Origin: Hexactinellida sp. DTS-2022
Lineage: Eukaryota; Porifera; Hexactinellida
Length of the DNA: 64,000 nucleotides
Direction of reading: 5' to 3'
Assembly: GCA_028753945.1 (NCBI GenBank)
Contig: JAPNXP010000014.1
Location: 2,976,001-3,040,000 of the forward strand
Shown piece after piece: positions 14,361-63,512 of this stretch. Made by a program: the position numbers and the translations under genes. Numbering within the stretch: the stretch's first letter is position 1; every line of letters starts with the position of its first letter. The notes under the pieces were generated by a model, which had not been told where the DNA came from, searched no databases, and saw nothing but the letters and a program-made list of their open reading frames with translations.

Positions 14361-15959
14361 TTAAGTAAATATTTGAAACCTTTCACTGATGCTATTACGG
14401 CATATGGGGCAGGTTTGTCCCATATCTATTATTTGTTGACTGCAATCAGCGCAAAAGGTTGCATGTCTGCATGGCATGAAAATCCATGTTGTTATTCGCA
14501 GACTGAGGCACACAGAGCATTGACTTCCTCCCATGTTTGAGTCAGGACCTTCCAGCTCTTCTTCAGTATCTTCGGAGTCGCTCAGAACAATTTGAGAATA
14601 TTTCTGGGATCCAATTGTGTTGCTCATATGCTGTAAATACTGCCATGGTGTATACTCTCCATTACGTAATTTTGCTTTGAATAATTTTCTTTGGTCATCG
14701 ATTTGCACACAGTTAAATTTCCTTGCGCGACTGATCTCCCTTCCTTGTCGTATTCTGCCAATATCATTGTCAGTATCTATGATGACATCGTTTAAATGTG
14801 ACGTAAATGTCCAGATCCTAGGGCAAGAACTCCTGATTCGAGCTTTCAGTTTTGCATGATAACTTTCTGCCCCATTATTTGAAGAGATACTCAGTTCAAA
14901 GATAGATAGTTCTTCCGGGGATATATTGGTAAGCCAGTGTCTCTTAATGTATTTATTTAGCTTTTCCAGCTTTAATCCTACACTGCTATCCAATGTTGGT
15001 GTCGTAATTAAATTGAACGTTGGATAGATCAGTTAGGCAGGAAGAAACGGAATCGCCATCAACAATCGTGTGAACTTTGATATCTCAACGTTACTTTTGA
15101 AATCCTGAACAAGACCCAATTTTTGAATCTTAGACCAAATACATTGAGTATAATGAAAGAAACATCCGTAAATGCGAATATGTGGGAAAACTTGTTTAAT
15201 GGCATTTCTAGGAGCACGCTCCCAATCGGACATTGAAGTCACAGGTTTGAAGTCAGGTAAGTATGTGACAAGCCGTTCTAATAGAGAACTATATAACTCT
15301 TGGCTCTTCGCTGTCATTAAACAGTGTATTGCAGGTACAGTGTGCCTTGCAACAGATATGAATATCGTCCATAACTGGTAAAACTGAATCGGAACCACAT
15401 CAAATGTTCCATCAAATTGTATGCTACTAGCTTCTGACAGTAAGACACTAATTTCGTCAGAAAAGAAGACCACAGCAATTTGGTTTCCAGCGGTTACAGA
15501 AAATTTGAAGTGCTTTCCAAGAGGTGTAGCTTCTAGCATTTCAATATATTCAATAGCTGTTGAAGGGATTTTCGGTTGAGAAGTTTTTCTACTCCTATAC
15601 ATAGCAGATTCACACTCAGGGAATGAAATATCATGAGCATTAGGTTCATTTCTAGTTGCATCATCGAATATGTTTCTGAGACTTGGGGATTGTGTCTGCT
15701 TAGCAAGTGTCTTGCACTTAGCTTTCAACTGATACACCGCGGTTTTATATTCATTAACTGTGTGATTATGTAGATGCATAGGGGTAATTGAATGTCTTGT
15801 GAGGTTCATTTTAGCTGTCCCTTTACACCCATTTCTAAATATAGCACATTTGAGGTAGACACAATTTTCGGTGGTCTTTGATTGCACATATTTGAAACCA
15901 TCAGCAGATGTAAAAACGCTACTTCCACATCGCTTGTATTCGTCGGTACTAAATTCCAT
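14361..15959 (-). pseudogene. MULE transposase with FLYWCH-like N-terminus and RING C-terminus, one nonsense codon
   Basis: A single 532-codon frame is interrupted only by an in-frame TAA (15033-15035), so it may be a recent pseudogene, or the stop could be read through. Order: a FLYWCH-like zinc motif (residues 15-66: C38, C45, H64/H66); a MULE DDE core with D183 in QFDGTFDV and D245 in SDWERA; the CHxxH-like GCFFHYTQC (266-273); and a likely catalytic Glu at ~365 in NNGAESYHAKL. The C-terminus (about 480-520) is a C3HC4 RING with CxxC-x12-CxH-x3-CxxC-x10-CxxC spacing, as in IAP-type RINGs. Known: MULE transposases mobilise elements and leave 8-11-bp duplications, and RING domains usually recruit ubiquitin-conjugating enzymes. 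That this RING ubiquitinates anything is inference. The gene lies between the two satellite termini of its element. Confidence 0.85.
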
Positions 15960-16175
15960 TGTATTGATATGTACTTTCTTTGGAAAGAGAACTATTTATG
16001 AACTCAAATTCACCTTGCCATATAAGTGTTTCACCCCAACATCTATGCACGAGTATTTACTAATAACACCATTTCTTGCTGTTGTTGATTTTTGGTATAC
16101 ATTTCAATGTATTCCGTTCTTGATTTTTGGTACACATTTCAAATTTTCAATGTATCCAAGATAGTTTCAATATAT

Positions 16176-36277: not shown

Positions 36278-38014
36278 CGATTCCTGGTGCAACTTCAGTA
36301 ATAAACACCTCCAAGATTTCGTGGAGTTAGGCTAAAACACTGTATGCACACGTCTAGAACTCGATAAATGATGAAGATAGACCAAAAGAAACCCAAAATC
36401 GGATAATAATTGACAAAGTTACGGCCAAAATCAGTGATAAGCCAAACCCTATGGAGAAAATTGATAACATCACAGAAGCCTTTTATACTGTAAACAATGC
36501 TATTACAGTAGTTACTCTTATGCATACAAGCTATTCCTAATGACTACACAACTTTATTCGTTTACTAGTGACGATTTTGAGGTTTCATGTTGAATTCCAA
36601 TTACACTGTTCATTACGCAATCACAAATTTATCAATTCTATTTTGCTACAATTTTACTGCTTGACTCTGCAAACTTGCTATTTTCCACATATATACCTTA
36701 TATTATAACAATAAATGACCGTTTGGAAGTAATAATTATATAAAAAATATGGTGATAATAATGAAACATTCCTTTTTATAGACATTAATATTAGGCGGAC
36801 ACTACTGTATCTACAAATAGTGAAGCAACTGCTCCTGCACTTGCTTCAATCGGTCATCAAATCTAGATGGTTTATCCTATAATTTAAGATTCTTTAAGGA
36901 ATTTGTTATTCTCTAAATAGCTTGAAATTATAATACAAGGACGAGACGATAGATAAGGTAATGTTTATAACAGGCGTCGCTGCCACTTATAATACTTTTA
37001 TTGTCCTAGTATCGAAGTCCAAATTCTACCAGAGTATAAATTGAACATAATTATTTGAGTGGTATCATATTCTACCAGAGTATAAATTGAACATAATTAT
37101 TTGAGTGGTATCATATTCTATAATTATTTATTACACTATTTAATCCGCTCCACAGCTAATATCTTTCATGTAACTGTATAATTTGGTAAAGCTACACTCC
37201 ATCCATATGATAAATTATGCAACAATTATTTCCAGGAGTAGAATAATCTGTTACAGTTAATTGACAACGTCACCTTAATTCAAATAATAATCACAAAATT
37301 ATACTAAGATCAATTACTTAAATGAGCAATAATACTTTTCTGAAACCGCCTGCTCAGTGTAATCTTTTAAAATTGCGTAGAGCACTATTTCTATTAAAAT
37401 ATTATATTAGGCCATATTAACAAAATAACTTATTTATAATCCCCGTCCGTCCCAAAATTCACCCCCGTCCGGATATTTCTTTTAGTATCTTCTGAACCAA
37501 ATTGTACAAATATTAGCTATAAACTTGTGTAAAGTACTCCTAATGTATCAATTTTTAATAAGTCAAGTATTGAGGGCATTACGTTTAATTATTTGGCATT
37601 GTCATGTGAATTCTAATTAAATTAAAATTAATATTGTTTAGTATAGGATACTGATACGTGTATTTGCATATTACTGAAATACAAAATAAAATAAAAATCC
37701 CGCCCGCAATCGGTATTTTATGAAACAATCTGATTGATAAACAATTAATTTATTTTACCTGGCCTTATTAATTAACACAGTCTTAGTTTAATAATATAAA
37801 TAAAATTATTAAAACAGATTATTGTCTAGATAATCGACTTTAGATACGAGTCTGTGCGTAAAGAATGTGTTTGCATTGTAATGTGCAAAATTGTCGTTAC
37901 TAACTAGATTTTGTTTCTTCTAGCAACCACAGTGCATTCCAAACATTAAATATTGTTACTACGTTAGGAAAAAAATAGTATATAAACACAGATTAATTTT
38001 ATTCTAAACTTTAA

Positions 38015-38947
38015 ATGGATTACATCCCATTACAAATCCCAACTATAATTTCCGACATCCCAACTGACTTTCTTCTCCCTCACCTGTATTCTCTAACATC
38101 AAACTACCAACACACAATTAACTGGTTACGGGATTATGGCCTTTTAGCTCGTGCAATGCAATGCAAATGTGGGGAGGAAATGTATGAGGGTGCCTACGCC
38201 AACTCCCAGGATGGTTACAAGTGGAAATGTCGCGCATGCAAGAGTTCCTGTTCAATCCGTTTTGGTTCCTTCTTTCATCCTTCCAAACTCTCGCTTACTT
38301 CGCTTCTCCAATTCATGTATCTCTGGTGTGAGGACATTCAGTCACACGCTATTATGGAGAAGCAGTTGCAGTGGGCACCAGCTACTGTTGTTGATTGGAA
38401 GAACTTTATGAGGGATATCTGTGTTGAAGAGATCATACAAGATGCTGAACCCTTAGGTGGGCCCGGAATTATCGTGGAGATTGATGAATCCAAGTTCGGC
38501 AAACGTAAATACAACCGCGGAAGATTAGTAGTGGGGACTTGGGTTTTTGGAATAGTCGAGAGAGATTCAGGCCGAATGGTTATGTTATGTGTACCAGATA
38601 GATCTGCTGCAACTCTGCTACCCCTTATCCAGCATTACGTCCTACCTGGCTCCGTAGTATACTCAGATGAGTGGGCTGCATACAATATCTTGGCTCATAC
38701 ACCCCAGTACACGCATCACACTGTGAACCATAGTGAGAACTTCGTGAATCCAACTACTGGTGTGCACACTCAAGGAATTGAAGGTAGCTGGAACATTGTT
38801 AAGAAAAGAATGAGAAGAGGATCAACTACTAATCCTGATGAACTGTTGGAAACACATCTGGCTGAGGGTTGTTGGAGGAGGAGAAACAAGGATAACATCT
38901 TTAACAACATCATAAAAGGGATCCGAAACTTATACCCAGTGTTTTGA
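38015..38947 (+). CDS. Merlin (IS1016/ISXO2-like) transposase, left copy
   Basis: An intact 310-codon frame. An N-terminal zinc ribbon (C50, C52, C72, C75) is followed by the IS1595/ISXO2-type DDE core: D157 in VEIDESKFGKRKY, D218 in VVYSDEWAAY and E256 in QGIEGSWNIVKKRM. Known family role: cut-and-paste transposition of Merlin elements with 8-9-bp target duplications, the eukaryotic relatives of bacterial IS1016. All three acidic residues and the zinc cysteines are present, so activity is plausible but not shown. A TATAAA-like sequence lies about 35 bp upstream of the ATG (37980). It converges with an almost identical gene in the other arm; the two proteins differ at the last residue (F versus V), where the palindrome arm ends. 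Confidence 0.95.
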   Translation: MDYIPLQIPTIISDIPTDFLLPHLYSLTSNYQHTINWLRDYGLLARAMQCKCGEEMYEGAYANSQDGYKWKCRACKSSCSIRFGSFFHPSKLSLTSLLQFMYLWCEDIQSHAIMEKQLQWAPATVVDWKNFMRDICVEEIIQDAEPLGGPGIIVEIDESKFGKRKYNRGRLVVGTWVFGIVERDSGRMVMLCVPDRSAATLLPLIQHYVLPGSVVYSDEWAAYNILAHTPQYTHHTVNHSENFVNPTTGVHTQGIEGSWNIVKKRMRRGSTTNPDELLETHLAEGCWRRRNKDNIFNNIIKGIRNLYPVF

Positions 38948-40025
38948 CTCAGTATCTAAACGATTATATATATATTATTAAAAGTCAAGTGCTGTGAGGT
39001 TGCTTGTTTGTTTGTCGGGTTGTATTAAAGTGATGGGGGAATTGAAACAGCATTTAAATAGAAACAAACTACCAAATCTCCTAATAGGTACATAATTAAG
39101 CTGATTACGACTACCGCATTTAACAAATCTATAATACATATGTATACAGTGTACTCCGCTTAATTGGGACAATTGGCCTGGAACATAGGTGTCCCAATTA
39201 AGCGGAGTACACTGTATTTATGTTGTTGTTTACAAAAATAGGGAAGCAAATTACGGAAAATAAAATAAAAACCCAAAATTCAGCTTGCATCGGGAATACA
39301 GGTAGACAAGCCTAAACGATGGGAAATGGTAGAAAGGGATGTATATTACGTCCCTTTCTACTTACTCCATAGTTGAAATGGTGAGGAGTAAAGCAACTTC
39401 CCTATTAGCAACTATTCTTGCAACGAAACCAGAGTTCTTAATGAAGGAACTCCATTGTATCATTAGTATTAACATAGGCAAATAGAGAAGTGGACTACTA
39501 TATAAAACTCAGGGAAATAAAATAACTGTTCCAAATACAGAGTTTTAAATCTTGATATATATATATATATACAGTGGAGTTGCTTTATTAGCAAACGCTT
39601 TTAAGATCCCAAGCGTGAAAACTGTTAATTTCATTCCCCAATTAGCAACATTCGCCTATTAGCAACCAGATTTATAAACAAACACGGCTTGCTAATAAGC
39701 GAACTACCACTATAAATTTATTTCTTAGTTTGTTAACAATTATGTTGAGATTGTACTAAGGTTATATGCAAATAGAAAGAGCAATTATAATTGGAATGTA
39801 GAATAGCTTTCAAATTGTTACAATAGGTAAGCATATTGAGATTTATTGTCTATTAAAAAAAGATAAACCGCGTAGTGGTTGTCCGTGGCGAATCGACCAA
39901 GACCGAAAGGCTCGTTGACATTATAATAATAATATTTCATCAAATCAATTTCCGGTCGCAGAACTCGTATTAAAGAATAATAGAATAGAATACTAATATA
40001 GATTAACGAACCTAAACCGATGAGA
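38948..40025. other. Unique centre of the Merlin palindrome
   Basis: It contains a TA-flanked 68-bp MITE (39147-39214; CAGTGTACTCCGC and its complement, nearly a perfect hairpin) and a diverged relative starting at 39572 with GCTTTATTAGCAAACGC. No gene. Confidence 0.7.
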
Positions 40026-40958
40026 TCAAACGACTGGATATAAGTTTCGGATCCCTTTTATGATGTTGTTAAAGATGTTATCCTTGTTTCTCCTCCTCCA
40101 ACAACCCTCAGCCAGATGTGTTTCCAACAGTTCATCAGGATTAGTAGTTGATCCTCTTCTCATTCTTTTCTTAACAATGTTCCAGCTACCTTCAATTCCT
40201 TGAGTGTGCACACCAGTAGTTGGATTCACGAAGTTCTCACTATGGTTCACAGTGTGATGCGTGTACTGGGGTGTATGAGCCAAGATATTGTATGCAGCCC
40301 ACTCATCTGAGTATACTACGGAGCCAGGTAGGACGTAATGCTGGATAAGGGGTAGCAGAGTTGCAGCAGATCTATCTGGTACACATAACATAACCATTCG
40401 GCCTGAATCTCTCTCGACTATTCCAAAAACCCAAGTCCCCACTACTAATCTTCCGCGGTTGTATTTACGTTTGCCGAACTTGGATTCATCAATCTCCACG
40501 ATAATTCCGGGCCCACCTAAGGGTTCAGCATCTTGTATGATCTCTTCAACACAGATATCCCTCATAAAGTTCTTCCAATCAACAACAGTAGCTGGTGCCC
40601 ACTGCAACTGCTTCTCCATAATAGCGTGTGACTGAATGTCCTCACACCAGAGATACATGAATTGGAGAAGCGAAGTAAGCGAGAGTTTGGAAGGATGAAA
40701 GAAGGAACCAAAACGGATTGAACAGGAACTCTTGCATGCGCGACATTTCCACTTGTAACCATCCTGGGAGTTGGCGTAGGCACCCTCATACATTTCCTCC
40801 CCACATTTGCATTGCATTGCACGAGCTAAAAGGCCATAATCCCGTAACCAGTTAATTGTGTGTTGGTAGTTTGATGTTAGAGAATACAGGTGAGGGAGAA
40901 GAAAGTCAGTTGGGATGTCGGAAATTATAGTTGGGATTTGTAATGGGATGTAATCCAT
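40026..40958 (-). CDS. Merlin (IS1016/ISXO2-like) transposase, right copy
   Basis: The inverted duplicate of the left gene: 310 codons, identical apart from the last residue (V instead of F). The catalytic D157, D218, E256 and the zinc ribbon cysteines are all kept. Its 3' end coincides with the inner end of the palindrome arm. Two intact copies in one element mean one can decay without loss of transposase, and converging transcripts could form long double-stranded RNA (inference). Confidence 0.95.
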   Translation of the reverse strand: MDYIPLQIPTIISDIPTDFLLPHLYSLTSNYQHTINWLRDYGLLARAMQCKCGEEMYEGAYANSQDGYKWKCRACKSSCSIRFGSFFHPSKLSLTSLLQFMYLWCEDIQSHAIMEKQLQWAPATVVDWKNFMRDICVEEIIQDAEPLGGPGIIVEIDESKFGKRKYNRGRLVVGTWVFGIVERDSGRMVMLCVPDRSAATLLPLIQHYVLPGSVVYSDEWAAYNILAHTPQYTHHTVNHSENFVNPTTGVHTQGIEGSWNIVKKRMRRGSTTNPDELLETHLAEGCWRRRNKDNIFNNIIKGIRNLYPVV

Positions 40959-42741
40959 TTAAAGTTTAGAATAAAATTAATCTGTGTTTATATACTATTT
41001 TTTTCCTAACGTAGTAACAATATTTAATGTTTGGAATGCACTGTGGTTGCTAGAAGAAACAAAATCTAGTTAGTAACGACAATTTTGCACATTACAATGC
41101 AAACACATTCTTTACGCACAGACTCGTATCTAAAGTCGATTATCTAGACAATAATCTGTTTTAATAATTTTATTTATATTATTAAACTAAGACTGTGTTA
41201 ATTAATAAGGCCAGGTAAAATAAATTAATTGTTTATCAATCAGATTGTTCCATAAAATACCGATTGCGGGCGGGATTTTTATTTTATTTTGTATTTCAGT
41301 AATATGCAAATACACGTATCAGTATCCTATACTAAACAATATTAATTTTAATTTAATTAGAATTCACATGACAATGCCAAATAATTAAACGTAATGCCCT
41401 CAATACTTGACTTATTAAAAATTGATACATTAGGAGTACTTTACACAAGTTTATAGCTAATATTTGTACAATTTGGTTCAGAAGATACTAAAAGAAATAT
41501 CCGGACGGGGGTGAATTTTGGGACGGACGGGGATTATAAATAAGTTATTTTGTTAATATGGCCTAATATAATATTTTAATAGAAATAGTGCTCTACGCAA
41601 TTTTAAAAGATTACACTGAGCAGGCGGTTTCAGAAAAGTATTATTGCTCATTTAAGTAATTGATCTTAGTATAATTTTGTGATTATTATTTGAATTAAGG
41701 TGACGTTGTCAATTAACTGTAACAGATTATTCTACTCCTGGAAATAATTGTTGCATAATTTATCATATGGATGGAGTGTAGCTTTACCAAATTATACAGT
41801 TACATGAAAGATATTAGCTGTGGAGCGGATTAAATAGTGTAATAAATAATTATAGAATATGATACCACTCAAATAATTATGTTCAATTTATACTCTGGTA
41901 GAATATGATACCACTCAAATAATTATGTTCAATTTATACTCTGGTAGAATATGATACCACTCAAATAATGATGTTCAATTTATACTCTGGTAGAATTTCG
42001 ACTTCGATACTAGGACAATAAAAGTATTATGAGTGGCAGCGACGCCTGTTATAAACATTACCTTATCTATCGTCTCGTCCTTGTATTATAATTTCAAGCT
42101 ATTTAGAGAATAACAAATTCCTTAAAGAATCTTAAATTATAGGATAAACCATCTAGATTTGATGACCGATTGAAGCAAGTGCAGGAGCAGTTGCTTCACT
42201 ATTTGTAGATACAGTAGTGTCCGCCTAATATTAATGTCCATAAAAAGGAATGTTTCATTATTATCACCATATTTTTTATATAATTATTACTTCCAAACGG
42301 TCATTTATTGTTATAATATAAGGTATATATGTGGAAAATAGCAAGTTTGCAGAGTCAAGCAGTAAAATTGTAGCAAAATAGAATTGATAAATTTGTGATT
42401 GCGTAATGAACAGTGTAATTGGAATTCAACATGAAACCTCAAAATCGTCACTAGTAAACGAATAAAGTTGTGTAGTCATTAGGAATAGCTTGTATGCATA
42501 AGAGTAACTACTGTAATAGCATTGTTTACAGTATAAAAGGCTTCTGTGATGTTATCAATTTTCTCCATAGGGTTTGGCTTATCACTGATTTTGGCCGTAA
42601 CTTTGTCAATTATTGTCCGATTTTGGGTTTCTTTTGGTCTATCTTCATCATTTATCGAGTTCTAGACGTGTGCATACAGTGTTTTAGCCTAACTCCACGA
42701 AATCTTGGAGGTGTTTATTACTGAAGTTGCACCCGATTCCT

Positions 42742-46425: not shown

Positions 46426-47052
46426 TTAGCATTGATATAGTTCTAAAATATGTTCGTAATGGTTGCTACTATGTCTAATGTATAAAGATCCAGCCTGATT
46501 AGCTGGCTTTGTTATTTCATCCAAACTGGCCCCGTTTCCTGAAAAGACCATCCATTTATTGCCCAGGTCACTTGTATACACCCATATGTCAGTTTTTAAA
46601 AGCATGGCCACAGTGAATAACTCTAAGTCTGTACCCCAAGTCTTATTATTGCGCATATTTGATTTGATTAGGTAATCTTTTGTATTACGATAATTAATAA
46701 CCGACCTCGGAAATTTGTTTCTAATAAATTTGTGACATACGTCATGAAATCTACCCATCATATTATCAGTTATAGTTAATCGCATTTTATGATAATTATC
46801 AATACTACCTGTAATCAAATAAGTGAGAGTCGAAAATAAACAATTCCCATCTTTTGGAATGGGAAACATTCGTGAAGGCTTTAATTGATTTAATTTATGC
46901 TTATATTTACTATTGCTTATGCAAATTACAGGATTGATTTTAGTAAATCCTAATTCATCGCAAATTTGTATTTGGCCCAAGAGAGAAAGATTTTTGAATT
47001 CAGGCAGTAAAAATTCGACGCTCCCTAATGCTAAAATATCTAAATCGGTCAT
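46426..47052 (-). CDS. OTU-like cysteine protease domain protein
   Basis: An intact 208-codon frame from the ATG at 47052. The OTU hallmark PIPKDGNCLFSTL carries D68 and the candidate nucleophile C71. A C-terminal NHYEHI supplies the candidate histidine (H198). WGTDLELFTVAMLL is the typical middle block. OTU proteases usually remove ubiquitin or related modifiers; many DNA transposons and viruses carry them, but substrate and role here are unknown. It is single-exon, on the same strand as the transposase-like exons upstream (47079-48998), and could be the C-terminal part of that gene or a separate gene. It is intact although the element has been interrupted. Confidence 0.85.
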   Translation of the reverse strand: MTDLDILALGSVEFLLPEFKNLSLLGQIQICDELGFTKINPVICISNSKYKHKLNQLKPSRMFPIPKDGNCLFSTLTYLITGSIDNYHKMRLTITDNMMGRFHDVCHKFIRNKFPRSVINYRNTKDYLIKSNMRNNKTWGTDLELFTVAMLLKTDIWVYTSDLGNKWMVFSGNGASLDEITKPANQAGSLYIRHSSNHYEHILELYQC

Positions 47053-47078
47053 GATTTCAACATTTTCTGCATGAATTG

Positions 47079-48998
47079 TTAATTTAATTGTTGTTCTGAG
47101 GTGGCATGTGTTGTTATTGTTAAATGGGAAGTTTTACAACCTTCAAGGCTATCAGCTAAAATTTTAATCTTTTTAGTTTTTGAGGAAGCGGCATTCCTAT
47201 CAAAATCTTTAAATTGACTAAATACTTTTTCAATCTTACGAGGAAGTGGGCTAATGTAACTAGTTTTACCTTTTTCCTCTTTGCCCATTCCAATTTACAA
47301 TGTTTCTCATTAACTAATTCACGTTTCAAATTTTTTTGTTTGAACATTTTCTGAGCCAAAGGTTGAAATGCAAATTGAAAGGCTGCCATCCTATCGTCTA
47401 TGTGAGAATATGTTGTACGAATGAAATCACCAGGTCTTATATTAGTTTCAGATTTAAATATTGAATGTTTAACAATTTTGAACCAATTTTCTACTACTGC
47501 GTTGCTATCAGTCGTTTTTTCACTTACTATTACTGTGTTTAGTATGATTCCAGTCCAAAAGGGAAGTATCGGAAAATAATAGGTCAATAAATATTCAAGA
47601 ATATCTGGAAAATACGATAAATTAACTATTTGTTTAAACGCGATGCATCTTCAGATTGAATTTTATCTAAGCAATTGTTATATAATGTATCAAAATGTCT
47701 GCCAAATGGAGATTGTTTTCGATAAGTCAGACCATTTTCCATAAATTTGGATTCTTTATCTATTTGTTCTTGCTGAAAATCATTTATCTCCATTTCTCCT
47801 TTAACTAATACTTCCAAATCTAGCAAACTACGATTAACGGTAGAAGACATGAATTCACTGCTCAATAAATAACACAACGATGTGAATACAAGGTTTATTT
47901 CTAGAATTCTGCTACTCTTCAAAATTGTGCCAATTGCATGTAATATTAATTGTTTCAAGTGTTTTTATATTTTATAATTTTTCTACAATTTATAACTTAA
48001 CCCATGCATAATATGTGCTGAGCAGAGATGGAGAACAGTTGGAAAATTAAGTTTTGTTGAATTTAGATTAACGAATTCCCAGCAATGATCCAAATAACTA
48101 ACTATGTTAATTCTATTAAATGCTAAGCAGACACTGCATCATCACCCAGCTATAATCCATTTCAATTTGGGAAACATATAACTCTCTATTTAAAACTAAT
48201 TTACTAGTTAAAACCCATTTGTTTAAAAAGTGAGCATTGGACTAATGAAAACATCTGGATGCTGTAAAGTGAGTGCATAGTAATAAATCTTATTAGTACA
48301 AGTAGAGAGCTTACTAATGAGCGAACCGGTTGCATCCAAATTCAATACGATGTTAGATTTCTTGAACATTTTAAATAATTATATCTGCTTTTTTTAATAA
48401 AGATGTATAATAAATGGCTGCTGGGCTACATATTGAATATACCCGAAAACAGGGCCTTCCGCTAATAGCGAACGGAAATATTGTTGAGTTGCTAAGATAT
48501 CTTCCATATAATCATTAGAAAATCTACATTTGGATTTAAACTCTGATTTAACTCGACGTAAACATGCTTGAGATTGTATATTAGTAAAATTTCCATGAGG
48601 CAACCCTTTATTGTTAGTGCTATTGAACTGTTTATAAAATATGGTATTAATAGGACTTTGAACTAAAACGTTCCCCATTTTTTCCCTTTCAATGCCTGAT
48701 AGATTGCGAGAATGGGTAGTACTACCGTCAAAGTGTTCTAGTGAAAAAGTTCCTTCGCACTTAAATTGTACAGCAACCGTGTCTATTTCTTTTGGGTCAA
48801 TCTTTTTCTCAATGGAAAAATGAAAAGATAAACAGTTCGTAAATTTGCAAACTGCCCATCCTTGAAAATATGGGGAATGTGATTTTCGGCTATTGTCTTT
48901 CTTTATCCAATAATTTTTAAATTTCAGGACACATTTCGGATTTAACTCAAGACAACTTCTTTGCGAATAAATTGGTCCAATTTCTATTTAACCTTAGA
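47079..48998 (-). pseudogene. Transposase-like coding segments, family not identified
   Basis: Minus-strand segments: 48998-48394 (CLELNPKCVLKFKNYW, then SPINTIFYKQFN and QACLRRVKSEFKSK), 47958-47626, and 47587-47156 (SNAVVENWFKIVKHSIF, then IRPGDFIRTTYSHIDDRM). They look like exons or frameshifted pieces of one protein. The N-x-VE-x-WF-x-x-VK block resembles the DDE Glu region of MULE/KDZ-like transposases, but I do not recognise the family firmly. The order and strand suit an element transposase upstream of the OTU gene. No complete frame is present, and stops separate the pieces; introns are possible. Confidence 0.5.
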
Positions 48999-61414: not shown

Positions 61415-62427
61415 ATGGCAGGAATGATTACATTGTTTTTAGCAGAAGAATCGGAAAATTCACTCGCTCGAGAGAGAGTCTTCAGAGATCGTAGTGATCC
61501 TTTGGAATTCTATGATGATCTAGAATTGGTGCAGCTTTACCGCTTCTCAAGGTCAGCAATATTAAGGATTAAAGAGATCATAGTTGATCATCTTAATTCA
61601 ACTGATAGATCTCATGCTGCACATCCACATGTACAAGTTTGTGTCGCACTACAATTTTTTGCATCTGGGACTTTTCAGATAATTTGTGGTGATGGAGTTC
61701 ACGTGAGCCAACCCTCAGCTTGCAGGTACATTAGAGCCGTTGCACTCGGACTACAATCGGTATATTCAAAGTTTATTAGCATACCCGGTTCTGCTGACAA
61801 GGCTACGATTAAGTCCCAGTTTTATGAGCTCGCGAACCTACCCGGCGTTCTTGGACTTGTAGGTGGAACACATGTTCGTATTCAAAAGCCTTCTGAAAAC
61901 GAGGCTAATTATGTAAACAGACATTTCTACAACTCCATAAATGTTCAAGCTCTCTTCTACCTATAAATGGTAGATTTTCCGATGTATTGGCAATATTCCC
62001 TGGTTCAGTACATGACTCACGTATTTGGAAGCTCTCTCAGGTTGGAACATATGTGGAGAATAACTTCTTGATTGGAGAGCATATCTTAGGTGATCGCAGG
62101 TATATGCTGAAATCCTATTTATTAACTCCATTCCGGCAACCTGCTTCAAATGTCCAAGAGAATTATAATTATTCCCACAAAAAAACGCGTGTATTAATCG
62201 AGCAAACCTTTGGGAGGTGGAAGAGAAGATTTCATTGCCATCACGGAGAGATCCGCATGGCTCCAGATAAAGTCTGCACTATTATTCTCGCATGTGCTGT
62301 TCTTCATAATATGGCTATTGTTTGGAAGCAACCCATGTTGGAAGATTCCATTATTGATCATCATACAAGTATTATGGATGAACCGTTCGCATTTGAGGAA
62401 ACTGGGCATCTTGCTGCAAAACACTAA
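61415..62427 (+). pseudogene. Harbinger (HARBI1-like) transposase, frameshifted and with a lost catalytic Asp
   Basis: The first frame (61415-61966, 183 codons) has the helix-turn-helix region and CVALQFFASGTFQ, VSQPSACRYIRAV, FYELANLPGVLGLV, then GGTHVRI (residues 150-156). Family members read GLVDGTH here, so the first catalytic Asp is Gly. A one-base change near 61960 moves the frame; the rest (to 62427) continues with FPGSVHDSRIW (second Asp), LGDRRYMLKSYLLTPFR and RVLIEQTFGRWKRRF (catalytic Glu), then an AVLHNMAI helix. Known role: with a Myb-like partner the enzyme cuts elements at TWA-like 3-bp sites. This copy carries two independent lesions. The start at 61415 is the first ATG ahead of the conserved blocks. 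Confidence 0.9.
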
Positions 62428-62759: not shown

Positions 62760-63512
62760 ATGGACCATAACGCAAAACAAATTAGAGCAGAGAAGAAGAA
62801 TGCAGTCTCATTAATGAAATTGAATCAGGGTGAGATTTTGAAAGGCTCAGGAAATAGTGCTGACAAAAACAAAAGGAAAAAACAAATCTGGAGAGACATT
62901 GTGGTCAAACTTAATTCAGCTTATGGCAATGGTAGAGCTGTAGAAGATGTGAAAAAAATGGACCAACCTTAAGCTAAACGCCAAGCATAAAATTGATGCA
63001 AGCTTTAGGGAAGCCAGAAAGACTGGGGGGATACAAACACTGCTGGACATGTCGAAGACGAAGACATGCTCATTATATCAGAATATAGAGGTATTTCTGA
63101 CTTTGCAGACCGGGTAACAGAGATGTTTCAAAACACTCCTGCTTTTAGTGGAATTTCAGGTGGTGTTGATTTTTTACAAGCACCAGCTGGCAACAATGAA
63201 ATCCCAATACGCGTAGCATCAAATAGCTTAACAGTATCAACAGAGGGTCCCGTTGAATTTGAAGGAAGTCCAATTTTAGAGTCTCCAGAAGTTGAAATCC
63301 CGACATATAAGCCATCGAAGAAAAGTCGGAAGAGGAGGCGAACTGTTGATAACCAAGATGATTCGGTCGAGTTATTGAGTGCTGCAGACTTACTTCCATT
63401 ACAGCAGGCAGTTTTGTATCAACAGATGGCTGTATTCTCAGCACAGCTTCAGTTTATAGAAGAGCAGAGGGAATATTATAGATTGAAACGTCTAAGACTG
63501 ATGGAAAAATAA
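62760..63512 (+). pseudogene. Harbinger Myb/SANT-like partner protein, frameshifted
   Basis: From the ATG at 62760: a basic region (KNKRKKQIWRDIVVKLNSAYGNGR) of Myb/SANT-like type, followed after VEDVKK by a one-base slip in an A-run, then TNLKLNAKHKIDASFREARKTGG in the next frame. A second slip in a G-run (about 63026-63031) restores the frame for GHVEDEDMLIISE and the C-terminal part to 63512: a Pro/Ser-rich linker, the basic KKSRKRRR (possible nuclear signal) and a glutamine-rich helix (FSAQLQFIEEQREYYRLKRLRL), probably a coiled coil. In PIF/Harbinger elements this protein brings the transposase to the nucleus and to the termini. Both lesions are in homopolymers, so sequencing error should be considered. 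Confidence 0.8.

Follow-up and report, generated by a model that had tools for sequence, protein, structure and literature searches.

The window analysed here is a stretch of 64,000 nucleotides from Hexactinellida sp. DTS-2022 (assembly GCA_028753945.1, contig JAPNXP010000014.1, positions 2,976,001 to 3,040,000 of the forward strand), and at 36286-42733 it contains a transposon of the Merlin type, made of two inverted arms with a centre of 1,078 bp between them, each arm carrying a complete transposase gene. Merlin is a eukaryotic superfamily related to IS1016 of the IS1595 family. The question raised by this locus is how a Merlin element came to be a palindrome with two convergent genes, and whether such a structure arose on the spot or moves as a unit. 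The best reading of the window element is that of a Merlin whose inverted repeat engulfed the transposase gene. It would belong to a Merlin family in which the mobile unit itself is palindromic, has spread from one ancestor and has its arms homogenised by gene conversion, a reading to which we assign a probability of roughly 0.83.

The palindrome and its two transposases

When the arms 36286-38947 and 40026-42733 were compared, we found 8 substitutions and 46 gap columns, the latter corresponding to a 46-bp tandem repeat that has one unit more in the right arm. A stretch of 1,928 nt is 100% complementary, and the similarity ends directly after the stop codon of the transposase. Such a long and nearly perfect inverted repeat exceeds by far what chance could produce. 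The first-pass annotation, made from the sequence alone, had described near-identical arms of about 2.7 kb that hold the entire gene and end at its stop codon, two intact convergent transposases and a perfect 8-bp duplication; our analysis agrees on each of these points, down to the limits of the element, with CGATTCCT on both sides and two open reading frames (ORFs) of 310 codons, the products of which are identical except for the last residue. With arms of 2.66 and 2.71 kb in a total of 6.45 kb, the window copy can be called an element of the foldback type.

Both transposases match the ISXO2-like transposase domain PF12762 (68.4 bits, cut-off 27), and the left one, which was scanned against NCBIfam, also matches the IS1595 model NF033547 (113 bits, cut-off 75; E-values in Table 1). 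Residues D157, D218 and E256 are present in both window transposases and invariant in 9 aligned proteins, 4 from the palindromic family and 5 from a second Merlin family described below. On the basis of this alignment we take them to be the catalytic triad, which would thus be kept in both genes, as had been claimed. A search by sequence for a solved structure of a relative returned none at E up to 1. The genome holds at least 8 full-length open genes of the window type (type A, see below), two each being contributed by the window copy and by the copy at locus L011. Because the pooled ratio of nonsynonymous to synonymous polymorphism (pN/pS) is 0.37 over pairs of 18 copies, one arm per copy, the data speak for a transposase protein that was under constraint while the family spread. 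A palindrome of this kind might also produce double-stranded RNA, as suggested in the first pass.

The GG at both ends of the window copy, the 8-bp duplications and the IS1595-type transposase support the assignment to Merlin, which had already been proposed in the first pass. A survey of Merlin elements gives terminal inverted repeats (TIRs) of 24-462 bp, GG ends and duplications of 8-9 bp (PMC8101967). The 2.66-kb repeat of the window element, with a gene on each side, lies outside that range and outside the plan of one gene per element; we regard the published range as a description and not as a definition, and the outer repeat common to both arm types measures 248 bp.

Copies, arm types and a second Merlin family

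The genome (112.4 Mb in 18 contigs) was searched with the window protein and gave at least 137 matches. Among the matches listed, 30 span 250 residues or more with an identity of at least 75%, distributed over 19 loci, and at no fewer than 16 of these 19 a convergent partner gene was found; one such pair is about 9 kb apart and in five the partner is partial. At the other three loci (C13:1988522, that is L028; C2:3507348; C3:1493842) the solitary gene still has centre sequence beside it. The finding of single-gene copies only, which the first-pass annotation had named as evidence against its proposal, was therefore not made. Sequences were fetched for 17 of the 19 loci, the window among them, together with older copies, so that 18 palindromes were examined in total, 17 of which could be fully typed for their arms. 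The same centre is present in each of the 16 further copies compared, with an identity that is mostly 94-98% per piece. Since one common centre is found in all of them, a single ancestral palindrome was multiplied and reached many sites as a unit.

Both ends could be read in 14 copies. The 8-bp duplication is perfect in six of them (the window copy, L009, L010, L015, L018/L019 and, provided that its left end lost one G, L013), and in a further three (L012, L016 and L022) 7 of the 8 flanking bases match. As a control, left and right 8-mers were paired across different copies (13 copies, L022 left out): 7 matches occurred in 1 of 156 pairings and 8 in none. Among the first 12 copies listed, the only departures from terminal GG are in L013 (left) and L020 (right, GA), to which the right end of L018/L019 (GT) is to be added. 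The check proposed in the first pass, that is the same structure at other loci with different 8-bp duplications, thus had a positive outcome, and the idea that the element formed or moved as a unit stands as far as movement is concerned; its formation is not a fresh event at the window locus and goes back to an old ancestral palindrome instead.

Concerning the arms, two types were distinguished. Type A is the arm of the window copy. In type B the likeness to A is confined to the outer 248 bp and to the gene downstream of about codon 16; the intervening regions, 1,526 bp long in A and 1,146 bp long in B, showed no meaningful similarity on comparison. Type A carries the full gene start and type B is without it: in the B arm of L017, for example, the A start codon is missing and the first in-frame methionine is residue 48. 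Sixteen arms with a B region were typed by script, and 14 of them have a 1-bp deletion just inside the gene; the arms of L019, L023 and L025, left untyped by the script, were set by hand. With the centre uniformly oriented, six copies are A-centre-B, three B-centre-A, four A/A and four B/B, L037 being untyped. In 9 of the 17 typed copies, therefore, those of the A/B or B/A kind, the inverted repeats consist of the outer 248 bp and the coding sequence only. The symmetry of 2.7 kb noted in the first pass holds for the window copy, which is A/A, and is particular to A/A copies, not a property of the whole family. On a tree of the centres the arm states are scattered as at random (9 changes against a mean of 9.5 in shuffled data). 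The centres of L009 and L010 (A-centre-B) and of L015 (B-centre-A) differ by 0-0.1%, and being so close in opposite orientation they indicate at least one recent flip of the centre. A 2.5-kb deletion derivative was also observed (L038:403-2931), a non-autonomous A/B copy that retains a B arm, part of the gene, the beginning of the centre and an A arm reduced in length, and that has no matching 8-bp flank.

A second Merlin family (L029-L035), about 51-52% identical in protein to the palindromic family over the full length, served as control. In the two copies with ends read, L034 and L035, a single gene lies in an element of 5.2 kb with inverted ends of 365-370 bp, and over 200 bp the L034 ends show 71.5% similarity to the 248-bp end of the palindromic family. 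Not one of the 17 genes of this second family in the list of best candidates (300 residues or longer and no less than 69% identical to L033) has a partner on the opposite strand within 20 kb. Since the second family has single genes and similar ends, the palindromic plan seems restricted to one Merlin family, and the 248 bp are likely to be the original TIR of that family. L034:2208-7430 and L035 are 99% alike over 5.2 kb, and neither has matching 8-bp flanks. Two single-gene Merlin copies, C14:1665787 (-) and C14:1700730 (+), stand 34 kb apart in divergent orientation with two TAG stops each; this pair may come from a large inverted duplication of the chromosome.

Conversion between arms and rival origins

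In the coding sequence (888 bp, n=18) the mean distance between arms is 1.08% within a copy and 2.35% between copies, and none of 20,000 random re-pairings gave a value as low; in the outer 248 bp (n=12) it is 0.71% within copies against 2.15% on re-pairing, with the same P. Nine of 14 copies show 0-2 differences between their arms. The B regions of three B/B copies show no difference between arms, while those of L021 differ by 3.9%. In L024 an identical set of 53 columns is missing from both arms, and its A regions have 0 differences in 518 positions, the nearest other copy being 4.8% away; the B regions of L020 have 0 in 1,127, the nearest other being at 1.9%. The ends of L014, an A/B copy, differ from each other at 1 position of 248 and from any other copy by 5.5%, and both of its arms carry TAG at codon 155. 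For 12 copies we counted the substitutions that no other copy has, and the numbers found in both arms and in one arm were 13 and 2 in L014, 5 and 0 in L020, 7 and 3 in L024, 4 and 1 in L025, 6 and 1 in L022, 4 and 0 in L011, 4 and 1 in L012, and 2 and 0 in L015. A stop in L020, considered at one point as further evidence of conversion, was dropped: no stop was found in its shared coding module, and the TGA in question sits at the B junction common to B arms. Finally, in the B arms of L012 and L014 the marker at the A/B junction is of the A type, and in the A arms of L015 and L022 it is of the B type, so that conversion crosses arm types in both directions. By their sequences, many copies have undergone internal gene conversion, in both directions, before or after insertion. 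Because such conversion homogenises the arms, the near-identity of the window arms is no measure of age, and we would warn against dating insertions of this kind by arm identity.

Several observations weigh against this picture. Matching 8-bp flanks are missing in 5 of the 14 copies (L011, L014, L017, L020 and L021). The B region alone gave a weaker signal (re-pairing P 0.04, n=4), and private substitutions in both arms and in one arm numbered 3 and 4 in L013, 0 and 5 in L021, 1 and 1 in L009, and 0 and 1 in the window copy. Only in 9 of the 18 copies is each arm clearly nearest to its own partner, and in seven (L009, L010, L013, L019, L021, L023 and L037) 0.8-6.6% separates the two arms. In L015 and L022 the 1-bp deletion typical of B is present in the A arm, where it breaks the frame from the A start; conversion thus also destroys, by bringing such a deletion into an A gene. 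Relative to the window copy pN/pS spans 0.12 to 1.37, the maximum being that of L013. Among the diverged or apparently one-gene copies that were read, a set that leaves out candidates at C14:2662-2667 kb, C2:2205-2210 kb and C4:1879-1887 kb, no unambiguous single-gene ancestor was found. Three candidates were tried and rejected: the element at L036 (C3; centre 83-93% by piece) is truncated on the right, and the 8-mer to its left is found again once, at a place without an element end; L039 (C14), the closest candidate and at first sight single-gene, carries a 113-bp inverted gene remnant at the B junction and for this reason is taken as a deletion of an A/B palindrome; L040 has a B arm and the terminal part of the centre, with unrelated sequence where the second gene would be.

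An alternative source of the A/A and B/B copies would be crossovers between one A/B copy and another, like those behind the chimeras of Galileo, instead of conversion within a copy; this is a real possibility, although we lean against it. L021 is by its sequence a clear chimera of two elements: its left B region has no difference from that of L010 in 1,145 positions, its right and left B regions differ at 44 of 1,126, and it has no duplication. Flanks matching at 7 or 8 of 8 bases are found in 7 of 8 A/B or B/A copies and in 2 of 6 A/A or B/B copies, a difference that is suggestive only (Fisher P 0.09). On the other hand, the A/A copy of the window has a perfect duplication and L016 (B/B) matches at 7 of 8; a comparison by eye of the copies read gave no pair with reciprocal exchange of 8-bp flanks, and the arms of L011, L017 and L020 are almost identical rather than chimeric. 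The window copy fits either conversion within the copy or transposition as A/A. If crossing over were the true source, the A/A and B/B copies would mark chromosomal inversions or translocations.

In the reading that we prefer, that of a palindromic mobile unit with converting arms, the unit runs from the outer TIR of 248 bp through a 5' region, the transposase gene, the centre, the inverted gene and a second 5' region to the other TIR. The product of a type A gene would cut the two outer ends and move the whole unit by cut and paste, while homologous repair between the two inverted genes would lead to conversion and to flips of the centre. A/A and B/B copies would come from A/B ones either through long-tract conversion within a copy or through exchange between copies. 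The least certain step is the first, in which a single-gene Merlin ancestor may have gained an inverted copy of its gene, beginning near codon 16 and ending at the stop.

A more speculative interpretation, which as a whole we consider unlikely, is that of a transposon archiving itself. In it the A/B form would be the true element, with A expressing the full-length transposase and the start-less B acting as a template for repair; conversion between the inverted genes would renew the gene, flip the centre and sometimes yield copies that are all active (A/A, as in the window) or all silent (B/B). Tn5 makes an N-terminally shortened inhibitor of its transposase, and by analogy type B, read from methionine 48, might yield a shortened inhibitor as well.

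Could the likeness of the arms simply reflect the youth of each copy, making conversion unnecessary? By their centres L009, L010 and L015 are indeed young, and the nine copies whose arms are not clearly closest to each other agree with this idea, but L014, L020 and L024, which are diverged by 1.2-5% from every other copy, still have near-identical arms; with private changes present in both arms and A/B markers moved between arm types within copies, we judge the explanation improbable. Even less probable is a composite of the bacterial style, that is two complete Merlins in inverse orientation, each with inner ends of its own, which move together by chance. Inverted transposase genes around a centre do recall Tn5 and Tn10, and the two arm types might go back to two original elements. 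However, the 21 terminal bases match perfectly at 36286 (+) and 42733 (-) and at no further site in the window with up to 3 mismatches (0 expected), and the best match to this end in the centre is 13/20, equal to that in shuffled sequence. Since the terminal sequence stands at the two outer ends only, a single window arm is without a second end; the window copy has no inner end, and none of the loci read showed a lone arm with two ends. Last, that every palindrome had an origin of its own, whether in fold-back template switching (during replication or gap repair) or in an assembly error, is hardly credible, because, although the window arms are near-identical and end sharply at the stop codon, the same centre is shared by 16 other copies, two different arms are found in 9 of the 17 typed copies, flanks and 8-bp duplications vary between loci, and the window arms differ by 8 substitutions and in repeat number. 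An assembly artefact is very unlikely to be the source of the window palindrome, and the common centre also speaks against a fresh fold-back at this locus; the first-pass annotation had named template switching or a fused pair as possible origins.

Features of the window and known systems

Table 1. Parts of the palindromic Merlin element in window coordinates.
Feature	Positions	Strand	Basis or remark
8-bp target-site duplication, left (CGATTCCT)	36278..36285		flank comparison
Outer TIR proper, left, 248 bp, common to arm types A and B	36286..36533	+	
Type A 5' region, left arm; extends 45 bp into the coding sequence	36534..38059	+	
46-bp tandem repeat, left arm (one unit fewer than right)	37023..37120		approximate limits
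Transposase gene, left, 310 aa	38015..38947	+	PF12762 E 9e-19; NF033547 IS1595 family E 1.8e-32
Centre, 1,078 bp; common to 17 other palindromes examined, mostly 94-98% identity	38948..40025		
Transposase gene, right, 310 aa; last residue alone differs from left	40026..40958	-	PF12762 E 9e-19
Type A 5' region, right arm	40914..42485	-	
46-bp tandem repeat, right arm (one unit more than left)	41853..41996		approximate limits
Outer TIR proper, right, 248 bp	42486..42733	-	
8-bp target-site duplication, right (CGATTCCT)	42734..42741		flank comparison

Within the centre there is a perfect inverted repeat of 28 bp (39144-39217), and centre bases ~610-790 (about 39570-39720) have relatives elsewhere in the genome at 82-88%; both are probably small non-autonomous elements nested in the centre. 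In the rest of the window, the GC content of which is about 35%, a MULE transposase ORF (14361-15995, -; PF10551, E 5.5e-13) adjoins a RING-finger ORF (PF13920, E 6.8e-13), and the two perhaps form one MULE-type element. At 46426-47650 (-) an ORF for an OTU-like cysteine protease (PF02338, E 1.9e-8) lies beside an ORF without Pfam match, possibly as part of another mobile element, and near transposon-like ORFs a tRNA-Ser (GCT) is predicted at 48069-48161 (-). Two overlapping ORFs at 61415-62427 (+), of which the second encodes a DDE_Tnp_4 nuclease domain (PF13359, E 1.1e-27), are presumably Harbinger-like, and a further ORF is found at 63009-63512. The window also contains a dynein light chain gene, with best match to chain 8j07_m3, which we take to be human. 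A scan of the window with Rfam gave no family reaching its gathering score.

The palindromic family may serve as a model for the growth of inverted repeats and for mobile palindromes that feed rearrangements, and its two mutually overwriting genes make a countable system in which one can ask whether gene conversion slows or speeds the decay of a transposon. Among the papers listed in the literature searches, at the level of titles and openings of abstracts and with Repbase left out, we found no Merlin or other DNA transposon with an intact transposase gene in each inverted repeat. With the Merlin superfamily the family shares 5'-GG ends, 8-bp duplications and a DDE_Tnp_IS1595 transposase of about 310 aa, and it departs from it in the 2.66-kb inverted repeat that contains the gene, in having two genes per unit and in its two types of arm; the second Merlin family of this genome, by contrast, has one gene per element. 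In Tn5 and Tn10 two inverted arms bearing transposase genes, one of them possibly defective, surround a centre in a similar way, but the palindromic Merlin has no inner ends, so that an arm should not move alone, and its enzyme is that of a eukaryotic Merlin. The palindromes of the primate Y chromosome are inverted gene pairs kept alike by conversion from arm to arm, a process comparable to the one proposed here, whereas the palindromic Merlin is itself mobile and present in many copies.

Among elements described in eukaryotes, Tm1, a Mutator/Foldback family of root-knot nematodes, is reported as having foldback-like repeats around a transposase, and in this it resembles our element; it differs in having one gene between the repeats, 9-bp duplications and a MULE-type enzyme (PMC3169594). 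KolobokP is likewise a eukaryotic DNA transposon of composite-like build, but its long terminal repeats are direct and have short inverted ends of their own, and its interior holds one transposase and a homing endonuclease (PMC9587614). For bacterial insertion sequences, inversions through recombination between TIRs are reported (PMC3004938). A parallel in behaviour is Galileo, of the P superfamily in Drosophila, whose TIRs are reported to grow by recruiting internal sequence and to recombine, and which has chimeric copies without matching duplications (PMC3573991). Growth of the TIRs, recombination and chimeras without duplications are thus common to both; the Galileo copies with the longest TIRs are reported never to be nearly complete (PMC3573991), whereas in the palindromic Merlin the repeat holds the intact gene.

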